Shown: piece after piece, positions 3,396 to 5,969 of the stretch
Position numbering within the stretch: position 1 is the first letter of the stretch
Layout of the letters: the number at the start of each line of letters is the position of its first letter
NCBI GenBank assembly: GCA_007118095.1
Contig: SKSF01000035.1
Location: 1-64,000, forward strand
Reading direction: 5' to 3'
Length of the DNA stretch: 64,000 bases
Source: Dehalococcoidia bacterium
GTDB lineage: Bacteria; Chloroflexota; Dehalococcoidia; Tepidiformales; Tepidiformaceae
Notes under the pieces: model-generated
The model's input: only the letters and a program-made list of their open reading frames with translations
Told to the model about the DNA's origin: nothing
Databases searched by the model: none
Translations under genes and position numbers: made by a program

Positions 3396-3566
3396 GTTTC
3401 GGGGAGTCACTGCGATACGGGGGAGGCGGATGTGCCGGCTACGAAGCCTCGAGCGCTTGTCGGCCTCGTTCCAGTTCGAAGGCTGTGAGCTCCTGGAGTA
3501 CTGCCTGCTTGCGTTTGGTCACTCCTGGCGTCGTTTCCAATTCGAGAGTCGACGCAAGGAAGCAAG

Positions 3567-3643
3567 TGGTCGGGGTGCCCCGATTCGAACGGGGGACCCC
3601 ACGGCCCCAAACCGTGTGCTCTACCAGGCTGAGCTACACCCCG
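3567..3643 (-). tRNA. tRNA-Pro (anticodon UGG)
   Basis: Complete cloverleaf on the minus strand. The 7-bp acceptor stem CGGGGTG/CACCCCG pairs 3643-3637 with 3577-3571. The D arm has GCTC/GAGC, and the anticodon stem CACGG/CCGTG encloses the loop TTTGGGG, with TGG at positions 34-36. The T arm is CCCCG-TTCGAAT-CGGGG, the discriminator base is A, and CCA is encoded (3569-3567). Confidence 0.97.
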
Positions 3644-3694
3644 ACTCCCCTGAGCGTACGAGGAATCCGCCGCAACGCAAAGCCGCACACCCGC

Positions 3695-3700
3695 TATAGT
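3695..3700 (+). promoter_or_regulatory. Putative -10 box of a leaderless hydrolase transcript
   Basis: TATAGT lies exactly 6 nt before the ATG at 3707, which has no ribosome-binding site. No -35 match is visible. Confidence 0.5.
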
Positions 3701-3706
3701 CCCCTT

Positions 3707-4456
3707 ATGACCGATCCATTCGCACAAGAACCGCCCGGCGGCGACCTCACCCTCAGTATCCAGGGCGTCGGCGCCGAACCGCCCGCCGACGACGGGTCGA
3801 TGCGACTGCACGTCAGCACAACCCGTGGCGAGATCCAGGGTGTTCTCCATCCCGTTGAAGGCGGCACTGGCGCGGTCGTCTTTGTCGGTGGCGCGTCTGG
3901 TGGCATCGATGGCCCCGCCGGGAACCTCTACAGTCGTATCCCGGCAGCACTCACCGAAAAGCAGATCACCACCCTCCGCCTGGACTACCGTCATCCCGAT
4001 AACTTCGAAGAGTGCGTGCTCGATGTGCTCGGCGCCTGTTCCGTGCTGAAGGGCATCGGCGCGAGCAAGGTCGTCCTGGCCGGGAACAGCTTTGGTGGTG
4101 CAGTGGTTATCAGCGCGGCCGAGCTTGCGCCCATCGTGGCCGGTGTCGTTTCGATGTCTCCCCAGCTCTACGGCACCAGCCGGGTTGAGCAGCTTGACTG
4201 CCCACTTCTCTTCATCCACGGCATGGCCGATACGGTCCTTAGCCACGAGGCCAGCGAGGATATCTACCGCCGGGCGAACGAACCGAAACGCATCGTGCTC
4301 TACGCCGAAGCCGGCCACTCGCTGGTCCAGGCGAGCCACGACATCGAAGATCTGCTGCTCGAATGGATACCTGCGTGCCTTTCCGGAGTGACCATGGAAG
4401 GTGGGCGCGAAGAATACGAAGGCCCGCACCGTGGTGCGGATTCCATGCAGGGATAG
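3707..4456 (+). CDS. Alpha/beta hydrolase (dienelactone hydrolase-like)
   Basis: Predicted cytoplasmic serine hydrolase of 249 aa. The catalytic triad can be read: nucleophile Ser128 in the elbow GNSFGG, acid Asp175 in HGMADTVL, and His204 in AEAGHSL. A GGASGG segment after the first core strand (61-66) is a candidate oxyanion-hole loop. There is no signal peptide. The first ~30 residues are polar and likely disordered, as is the C-terminal tail after residue 225. The frame is open further upstream but runs through the tRNA on the other strand, so the ATG at 3707 next to the TATAGT box is preferred. The substrate is unknown. Confidence 0.85.
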   Translation: MTDPFAQEPPGGDLTLSIQGVGAEPPADDGSMRLHVSTTRGEIQGVLHPVEGGTGAVVFVGGASGGIDGPAGNLYSRIPAALTEKQITTLRLDYRHPDNFEECVLDVLGACSVLKGIGASKVVLAGNSFGGAVVISAAELAPIVAGVVSMSPQLYGTSRVEQLDCPLLFIHGMADTVLSHEASEDIYRRANEPKRIVLYAEAGHSLVQASHDIEDLLLEWIPACLSGVTMEGGREEYEGPHRGADSMQG

Positions 4457-4566
4457 TTGCGGCGAGCACGACAACTTGCCCTAAGCGGGTGAAGGGGACT
4501 GGCGCTGCCATTTACCTCTGTGATACTTTACGCATCCGGCTGAAACGGAGGCGCTGTCGGCGGGGT

Positions 4567-4666
4567 GGCCGGCGTATGCAAGGCTCGCGTGCTTGACGCC
4601 ATCTCCCATAGCTTCAAGCACCATTCCCTCGGGAAAGCCGTCCTACCGGACGTGCATACGGCGGCC
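4567..4666. other. Structured intergenic element (copy B), possible noncoding RNA
   Basis: Two arms, 4567-4580 and 4653-4666, are complementary at 13 of 14 positions and close a 100-nt structure. Inside are TGCTTGA/TCAAGCA (4590-4596 with 4614-4620), a small TTCCC/GGGAA hairpin, and the palindrome CGTCC-TACC-GGACG within the 17-nt core GCCGTCCTACCGGACGT at 4637-4653. The same core and the same order of three hairpins recur at 4740-4811. The element sits between the convergent hydrolase and ftsZ genes, so its strand is undecided. It matches no RNA family I know. Confidence 0.45.
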
Positions 4667-4739
4667 AGGCAGCTCCTCCTTTCAGCCCTCTTTTTTGTCT
4701 CGCGCTAACTTGCCATAACACAGTAAGCGCAAAGCAAGC

Positions 4740-4811
4740 GGGGCCGGCGTCATCTCCCGCGACGCCAGCCCCGTAGCACCCCCGCAGGGGCCGTCCTACC
4801 GGACGTTTTTT
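4740..4811 (+). terminator. Structured element copy A ending in an intrinsic terminator
   Basis: On the plus strand, a long hairpin has arms 4740-4751 and 4761-4772 (11 of 12 pairs). It is followed by CCCC/GGGG, and then by CGTCC-TACC-GGACG (4792-4805) running straight into TTTTTT (4806-4811), which is a textbook rho-independent ending. It shares the 17-nt core and the CATCTCCC loop with copy B. It could end transcription from the hydrolase side and shield the ftsZ end of the dcw operon. Confidence 0.6.
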
Positions 4812-4835
4812 CGCGCTCGGCTTCGTGCTATTTGC

Positions 4836-5969
4836 CTACCTCCTTTCGTTCTGACTTGCCACTGCCTCTTCCTGCGCCCGGTTCAACGCGCCCAGGGAGC
4901 GGATGTTCCGCCGCAGGAACGCGGGCAGTTCGGCATCTTCGGAGCTGCTCACACCCGGGAGCCCGTACTCTGCGATGCGCTCTTCGCGCCGGTGGGTGTC
5001 GAGCTGTTGCGCCTTGGGCGGGAAGCCCGTCGCAATCACCGTCATGTGCACTTCTTCGCCGACGCTCGGGTCGACGACCGTGCCCATCAGGATGTTCGCC
5101 GAGGGGTCGGCCACTTCCGCGATGACGCGTGCCGCCTGGTCGAACTCCTGCAGCTTCAGGCTGCCGTCGTGCGTGATGTTGTAGAGGACGTTCTGCGCCC
5201 CATCAATCGACTGGTCGAGCAGCGGGCTAACCGTTGCCGCACGCGCAGCCTCGACCGCGCGGGAATCGCCGGCCGCGCGGCCGACGGCCAGGAGCGCGGG
5301 GCCTGCTTCCGACATCGTCGTGCGGACGTCGTTGAAGTCCAGGTTGATGGCGCCGTTCTGGCTGATGATGTTCGAAATCGACTGGATTGCCTGCCGCAGG
5401 ACGTCGTCGGCCATATCGAAGGCCTCGGTGACCGTGCACTCGTTCGGGCAGATCTCAAGCAGTCGCGAGTTCGGGATGACAATGAGCGTATCGACCTTCT
5501 CGCGCAGCCGGCTGATGCCCTCCTCGGCCTGCTGCATCCGCCGTGCGCCCTCCCACGCGAACGGCTTCGTCACCACGCCGATGGTGAGCGCCCCGGCTTC
5601 CTTCGCGATCTCGGCGACGATCGGGGCGGCGCCTGTGCCCGTACCACCACCCATACCGGCGGTCACGAACACCATTTCGCTGCCGCGCAACAGGTCGTGC
5701 AGCTCTTCGCGGCTTTCGTCCGCCGCGCGTTCGCCACGAGACCAGTCGCCACCGACACCAAGGCCTTTCGTCAGCTTTTCACCGATCCGCAGCCGTACCG
5801 GCGCCTCCGAGGTGGCGAGCGCCTGGGCGTCCGTGTTGCAGGTGATGAATGTGACGCTGGGGATCCGGGACTGGATCATCCGGTCGACGGCGTTACATCC
5901 GCCGCCGCCCACCCCAACAACCTTGATGTTGGGCAGGACGTCTGTGTCGTACTGCGCGTGGCGGGTCAT
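4836..5969 (-). CDS. ftsZ: Cell division protein FtsZ
   Basis: Tubulin-like GTPase that polymerises into the Z-ring at midcell. The 377-aa protein carries the nucleotide motif GGGTGTG at residues 107-113, the N-terminal VVGVGGGGCNAVDRMI, and the synergy-loop region FNDVRTTMSEAGPALLAVG. The conserved C-terminal peptide that binds FtsA and other tethers is recognisable as ELPAFLRRN, followed by a basic tail of about 25 residues. The ATG at 5969 is preceded by AAGGAGAGCAAT. It is the last gene of the dcw operon; the 86-bp gap after ftsA contains this Shine-Dalgarno site and allows independent translation. Confidence 0.98.
   Translation of the reverse strand: MTRHAQYDTDVLPNIKVVGVGGGGCNAVDRMIQSRIPSVTFITCNTDAQALATSEAPVRLRIGEKLTKGLGVGGDWSRGERAADESREELHDLLRGSEMVFVTAGMGGGTGTGAAPIVAEIAKEAGALTIGVVTKPFAWEGARRMQQAEEGISRLREKVDTLIVIPNSRLLEICPNECTVTEAFDMADDVLRQAIQSISNIISQNGAINLDFNDVRTTMSEAGPALLAVGRAAGDSRAVEAARAATVSPLLDQSIDGAQNVLYNITHDGSLKLQEFDQAARVIAEVADPSANILMGTVVDPSVGEEVHMTVIATGFPPKAQQLDTHRREERIAEYGLPGVSSSEDAELPAFLRRNIRSLGALNRAQEEAVASQNERR

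Follow-up and report, generated by a model that had tools for sequence, protein, structure and literature searches.

The window analysed here is a 64,000-nt stretch of contig SKSF01000035.1, part of a 3.2-Mb draft genome. Within it, a gap of 380 nt separates an alpha/beta hydrolase gene (plus strand, end at 4456) from a convergent ftsZ gene (minus strand, stop at 4836), and most of the features described below lie in this gap (Table 1). Pfam matches in the hydrolase ORF start only near residue 131, so the true start of the gene is probably downstream of the called one. An Rfam scan also placed a tRNA gene (3570-3643, minus strand) within the 5' part of the called ORF (3485-4456).

Table 1. Features in and around the gap between the hydrolase gene and ftsZ, with positions in the window.
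Feature	Position	Strand	Evidence
Alpha/beta hydrolase ORF, preceding the element	3485-4456	+	Pfam Hydrolase_4 1.9e-12
Promoter-like block: CTGGC at 4499-4503, extended -10 TGATACTTT at 4521-4529	4499-4537	+	Conservation
Complete copy B (candidate small RNA), matching model positions 1-160	4538-4687	+	R1 112.9 bits, E 7.7e-19 genome-wide
P1 closing helix, 5' arm, partner 4667-4687	4538-4558	+	Alignment, covariation, folds
7-nt bulge GGCGGGG	4559-4565	+	Invariant in 26/26 aligned copies; unpaired in folds
Helix P2, 5' arm; 14-nt arm of the preliminary description at 4567-4580	4566-4580	+	Covariation, folds
Hairpin P5, invariant loop core TCTCCCA at 4602-4608	4589-4621	+	Alignment, covariation
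Hairpin P4, sequence variable	4624-4635	+	Alignment
Hairpin P3, GTCC-TACC-GGAC	4640-4651	+	Alignment
Helix P2, 3' arm	4653-4666	+	Covariation, folds
P1, 3' arm, holds CCTCCTTTC as in the 16S rRNA 3' tail	4667-4687	+	
T6 directly after P1, possible plus-strand termination point	4691-4696	+	9 T in 14 nt past P1
Copy A, partial copy (P5, P4, P3), model positions 36-133	4721-4815	+	38 bits
P5 of copy A, read on the strand of ftsZ: terminator-like hairpin of 14 pairs, GGGAGA loop	4739-4773	-	
ftsZ, stop at 4836	4836-5969	-	Pfam Tubulin 1.8e-48, FtsZ_C 2.5e-26
GAAAGGAGGTAG at the stop of ftsZ, left over from the P1 3' arm of copy A, complementary to the 16S tail	4836-4847	-	

The preliminary description of this DNA had reported two related structured elements in the gap, of which copy B proved to be the core of a 150-nt element on the plus strand (4538-4687). 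Its 14-nt arms were found as described, with 13 of 14 positions matching between 4567-4580 and 4653-4666, and the hairpins between them are present, but the outer helix (4538-4558/4667-4687) had been missed and copy B lies inside it. In the fold, the long helix P1 joins the two ends of the RNA and is followed by the GGCGGGG bulge, helix P2 and then hairpins P5, P4 and P3; one hairpin loop, UCUCCC, is invariant in the alignment of copies. The fold z-score of the full element is -4.57, that of the 4553-4680 piece is -2.8, and the 4730-4822 piece gives -2.6 on the plus and -3.3 on the minus strand. Both copies carry the 17-nt core that had been noted (4637-4653 and 4790-4806; two window matches at up to 3 mismatches, with 0.43 expected) as well as the CATCTCCC segment, and copy A does end in T6 (4806-4811). 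Copy A has P5, P4, P3, the core and CATCTCCC, but it is a partial copy in which both P1 and P2 lack their 5' arms. We also considered a small ORF behind the SD-like sequence and dropped it, since by eye the sequences inspected show no suitably spaced start codon.

The earlier proposal of a structured RNA with covariation gained strong support from alignment, shuffles and single folds once homologues were added. MAFFT alignment A1 contains 26 copies; the near-identical genomes G013, G021, G025, G028, G031 and G033 were omitted, and G008 and G010, found later, are absent. Scored against a structure that we named ourselves and derived from the same sequences, 87.3% of the 1314 structure cells in A1 pair, compared with 33-50% after the partners have been shifted by 1-3 columns, a control that flatters the structure somewhat because of this derivation. 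Changes on both sides were seen in 19 of 52 pairs, and none of 500 shuffles of A1 reached any of five measures. When no structure was supplied, RNAalifold recovered P1 and P5, with 30 pairs in total and double changes in 11; the double changes in P1 and P5 (e.g. columns 21/175 and 22/174) are independent of how the structure was derived. The mean z-score of 31 copies folded singly was -6.4. Compensatory changes of this kind support a common fold, as in a structured non-coding RNA. A pseudoknot between the bulge GGCGGGG and the loop UCUCCC was considered, for which covariation is uninformative since both partners are invariant.

Model matches identified a relative of the element in 35 of the 38 Tepidiformaceae (Chloroflexota) genomes examined, comprising 23 from the first R1 search, 11 from a second search (G003, G004, G006, G010, G011, G015, G022, G023, G024, G027 and G034) and G313. 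G001 had no model match in the R1 search and G030 none in any search, and FtsZ was found in neither; G012 had only a hairpin match of 22.5 bits. The genomes compared are mostly MAGs, as judged by their titles where named, and the family includes Tepidiforma, with the element present in the complete genome (CP115149) of Tepidiforma flava, a species with a strain name. Beyond the family, the R1 search of 294 class genomes gave a single weak match, in G258 (E 0.009, 30.7 bits), and the R2 search of the same set gave only partial matches, at E 0.07 and 0.8, in two genomes of f17, where Infernal E-values are rough and both searches, like all R1/R2 searches of more than 40 genomes, ran with stricter filters. 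The G258 match was taken as chance: its alignment skips the UCUCCC loop and overlaps long open frames. In 350 phylum genomes, R2 found nothing beyond family members. A pattern scan of named genomes returned at least 119 stretches; among the 85 examined (80 listed and five of five viral ones) were nine true model matches, titled Tepidiforma, Dehalococcoidia, Chloroflexi or, once, 'Bacterium'.

Full copies are 130-182 nt long, start with GGCUGA and end with UCAGCC, and nearly all of them adjoin the 3' end of ftsZ and are convergent with it. We searched 60 relatives for the gap and FtsZ and then inspected the region 3' of ftsZ, where the conserved block, whole or partial, directly follows the gene in 29 family relatives inspected. 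Exactly 16 nt of the ftsZ coding sequence are overlapped by 17 of the 23 copies tested, the placement expected of a cis-antisense RNA; five sit 8-14 nt beyond the stop, and the remaining one, copy B of the window, lies 148 nt from the stop and has no such overlap. In the 17 overlapping copies, the stretch with the last ftsZ codons and the stop also forms, on the opposite strand, the 3' arm of the closing helix. A few copies lie elsewhere: that of G015 (L130:2875-3004), with no ftsZ nearby, is flanked by an amidase gene in divergent and a GyrI-like gene in convergent orientation and retains fold, upstream block and loops (103 bits), and the copies of G011 on C105 and of G017, about 0.7 kb away, are apart from ftsZ and keep the whole fold.

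Only the window genome and G002 showed the tandem arrangement; most genomes have a single copy. In G002, G011 and G017 a weaker or partial copy stands beside ftsZ and a full copy elsewhere. We take copy A to be a decayed tandem partner that is now the ftsZ 3' UTR. Inverted ends and tandem copies, in the window as in G002, would also suit a mobile palindromic repeat of the REP or MITE kind, as had been suggested, but we give this reading almost no credence: genomes hold only one or two copies, these occupy the same locus in most genera, and loops are kept while stems covary. The 12-nt core GTCCTACCGGAC has five exact sites in the whole genome, and as the three others are outside this structure, the element is not a dispersed repeat.

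The remark that neither copy matches a nameable RNA family was borne out by Rfam 15, which gave nothing at E<=10 in 4440-4860; at the gathering cut-off, the tRNA at 3570-3643 was its sole match in the whole window. A riboswitch-like function, also raised at first, was rejected by position. The element has a promoter-like block of its own, and its plus-strand output enters the 3' end of a convergent gene (ftsZ or, in G015, the GyrI-like gene) and not the start of an mRNA.

This upstream block is ungapped relative to P1 across the 30 copies counted (G009 not among them): -17 T, -16 G, -14 T, -13 A and -9 T each occur in 28 of 30, T-38 in 25 and G-36 in 26. The pattern TGnTAYnnT, in summary form TGnTACnnT, is found upstream of 29 of 31 copies, and a scan with the standard sigma-70 consensus found no promoter in 4400-4900. 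The block would place the transcription start at about the first base of P1. Wobble pairs bear on the strand in different ways along the element. Read on the plus strand, P1 has 39 G-U versus 13 A-C cells and P2 has 40 versus 5, the outer P2 pairs having been chosen by plus-strand logic, while an excess of A-C over G-U cells in P5 (18 versus 4) and P4 (6 versus 1) favours the ftsZ strand for those hairpins. All helices minus five pairs, the strand-chosen ones included, give 43 G-U versus 47 A-C cells, a total that does not by itself settle the strand. In 21 of 31 copies it is the plus strand that gives the more stable fold (mean 4.5 kcal/mol). The G015 copy, with a divergent gene behind it and a convergent one ahead, is not simply the 3' UTR of an upstream gene. 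In our reading both strands are used, the plus strand for the RNA and the minus strand for an ftsZ terminator.

Taken together, the element is real, conserved and structured, and most likely represents a new candidate small-RNA family of the Tepidiformaceae, convergent with ftsZ. Possible functions would be antisense control of ftsZ, action in trans or a ribosome-related role. The interpretation that we put at about an even chance is that 4538-4687 is a small-RNA gene with its own promoter, antisense to ftsZ, which tunes the ends or stability of ftsZ mRNA, and that the opposite strand serves as terminator. A non-coding RNA of about 150-185 nt would be transcribed from this promoter, with its ends paired in the long helix, and would run towards the 3' terminus of ftsZ, whose final 16 coding nucleotides it would overlap in most genera. 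The C-rich loop UCUCCCA, which is exposed, could pair with the GGGAGA loop of the ftsZ mRNA 3' end, and the segment CCUCCUUUC with the GAAAGGAGG segment there; such antisense pairing might tune end formation or stability of the mRNA, and the reverse strand of the largest hairpin would double as the ftsZ terminator. In the window genome, a tandem duplication may have produced the present arrangement, with copy A now the 3' UTR of ftsZ and the RNA gene represented by copy B. The loops common to both copies could then allow the RNA from copy B to pair with the ftsZ 3' UTR derived from copy A, and cognate and non-cognate pairs were compared in four genomes. The longest stretch complementary to the RNA falls in the genome's own ftsZ 3' UTR in two of four genomes (17 nt in the window genome and 30 nt in G002; not in G011 or G017), and RNAduplex favours the cognate pair of RNA and ftsZ 3' UTR in one of the four genomes compared.

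On the ftsZ strand, the opposite strand of the largest hairpin looks like a terminator. In copy A it has the form of an intrinsic terminator, with 14 pairs and the tail CTTGCTTTGC, and other ftsZ-adjacent copies do likewise. Most ftsZ-adjacent copies have a T-rich tail after P5, with 4-8 T in 12 nt (G010 has one); T residues are few in copy B of the window (2), G015 (2), G017b (3) and G011b (4), and the second G002 copy has 7. After P1, most ftsZ-overlapping copies have no T-run. The initial suggestion of a double terminator after ftsZ stands as far as the copy A hairpin and the T-rich tails go, but leaves the long-range helices and the upstream block unneeded. A broader form of it, in which the locus contains no RNA gene of its own and is solely a bidirectional terminator or 3' UTR element, its hairpins terminating ftsZ transcripts and stopping antisense transcription, seems unlikely to us. 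It would accommodate the terminator-like score of the copy A hairpin, the tolerance of P5 for G-U on the ftsZ strand, the T-rich tails and the occurrence of a related motif after ftsZ in other families, but termination requires neither P1, P2, the invariant bulge nor a block at fixed distance upstream, and copies exist away from ftsZ.

Those outlying copies (G015, G011 on C105 and G017), by keeping the whole fold, also point to a free-standing, trans-acting or housekeeping small RNA for which the neighbourhood of ftsZ would be historical. Its targets would lie elsewhere, for instance in SD regions accessible to the C-rich loop, or it would bind a protein or the ribosome. Both the bulge and the loop are invariant and look like binding sites, and the 3' arm resembles the 16S tail, which would fit such a role, but the ftsZ-adjacent position is held through nearly the whole family, and we consider this explanation less likely than the antisense one.

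Part of the conservation is older than the family's RNA. The motif GGAGG..TC(T/C)AGCC occurs on the ftsZ strand in 11 of 71 non-family loci downstream of ftsZ (L280, of 147 bases, was excluded) and on the other strand in one, where shuffles expect 0.35. The 11 loci belong to families f17 (five), f60 (two), f66 (two), f32 (one) and f50 (one); six of them also have GGGAGA within a stem of at least 14 pairs, and G205 has GGGAGA with a shorter uninterrupted stem. Since these families lack the full RNA, the plus-strand RNA does not account for all of the conservation. In f17 genomes (L117, L267, L268 and L269), a second conserved hairpin, GTAGCCC...GGGCTAC, lies 3' of the ftsZ block and has no Rfam match, and G067 has a gene for RNase P class A RNA (L273:640-1001) within a few hundred bases of the 3' end of ftsZ, on its downstream side.

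Taken as its reverse complement, the 16S 3' end closely resembles the older motif, a similarity noticed after the fact. A pattern covering both the 16S end and the element had 36 matches in 61 genomes, which by our count were 28 16S ends, 7 elements and one other; two of the 16S loci were confirmed by Rfam. The resemblance may amount to a strong SD-like segment with a short chance extension. In a more speculative and quite doubtful reading, the small-RNA gene arose antisense to an older ftsZ 3' UTR and could couple ribosome state to FtsZ level. Directly behind ftsZ, five other families have only the ftsZ-strand block GGAGGT..CTGTCTAGCC, in most of them with a GGGAGA-loop hairpin, and this block is complementary to the 16S 3' end; in this reading an opposing promoter and new 5' arms would have made the reverse strand a closed RNA in the Tepidiformaceae, and the 3' end of that RNA would imitate the 16S tail (CGGCUAGAU..ACCUCCUUUC beside CGGCUGGAUCACCUCCUUUC). 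As neighbouring families keep only the ftsZ-strand part, the element may illustrate the origin of a structured RNA gene on the strand opposite a 3' UTR. If it is transcribed, a lineage that has been little studied and is barely tractable would have a new family of small RNAs, antisense to the end of the central cell-division gene, and post-transcriptional control of ftsZ in the Chloroflexota would become testable.

Literature searches, which took in few subscription papers, turned up nothing on the element, including in PMC11109978, PMC8632094, PMC2864571 and PMC10284905, and no RNA regulator at the 3' end of ftsZ. Among known RNAs, the element is like 6S RNA (RF00013) in standing alone, in its paired 5' and 3' ends and in its length, and it differs in lacking an open central bubble and a model match. 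A model search of 41 genomes found RF00013 in none of the 25 family genomes, the window genome included, an absence that says little because the model finds 6S RNA in only 5 of 14 control genomes; a match was seen in G043, a genome of another family. This distribution and the shared traits would be expected of a divergent 6S RNA of this lineage, but the one-sided 7-nt bulge with a multibranch interior of three hairpins in the folds is not a large open bubble, Rfam matches are absent up to E 10 and the model's own reach is short, which makes this identity highly improbable.

Cis-encoded antisense RNAs with exposed loops are known from plasmids, as in the CopA/RNA I type. The element resembles these in its convergent orientation, overlap with the end of the target, stem-loops and complementary loops on two strands, and differs in being chromosomal and located at ftsZ, in its long end-joining helix and in having some copies that moved, with pairing and control putative here. 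With bacterial intrinsic terminators it shares P5 and a T-rich tail on the ftsZ strand, but it reaches far past a single hairpin, and its loop is conserved. Chloroflexi-1 RNA (RF01698), presumably among the Rfam 15 models, differs in that the Rfam 15 scan gave no match to the element. That RNA is a structured candidate from the Chloroflexota, according to PMC2864571. Small RNAs whose C-rich loops pair with SD regions are described in, for example, PMC6234868 and PMC3771888. Although it has another fold and belongs to another lineage, the element shares with them an unpaired CUCCC-type loop, which in its case is invariant.
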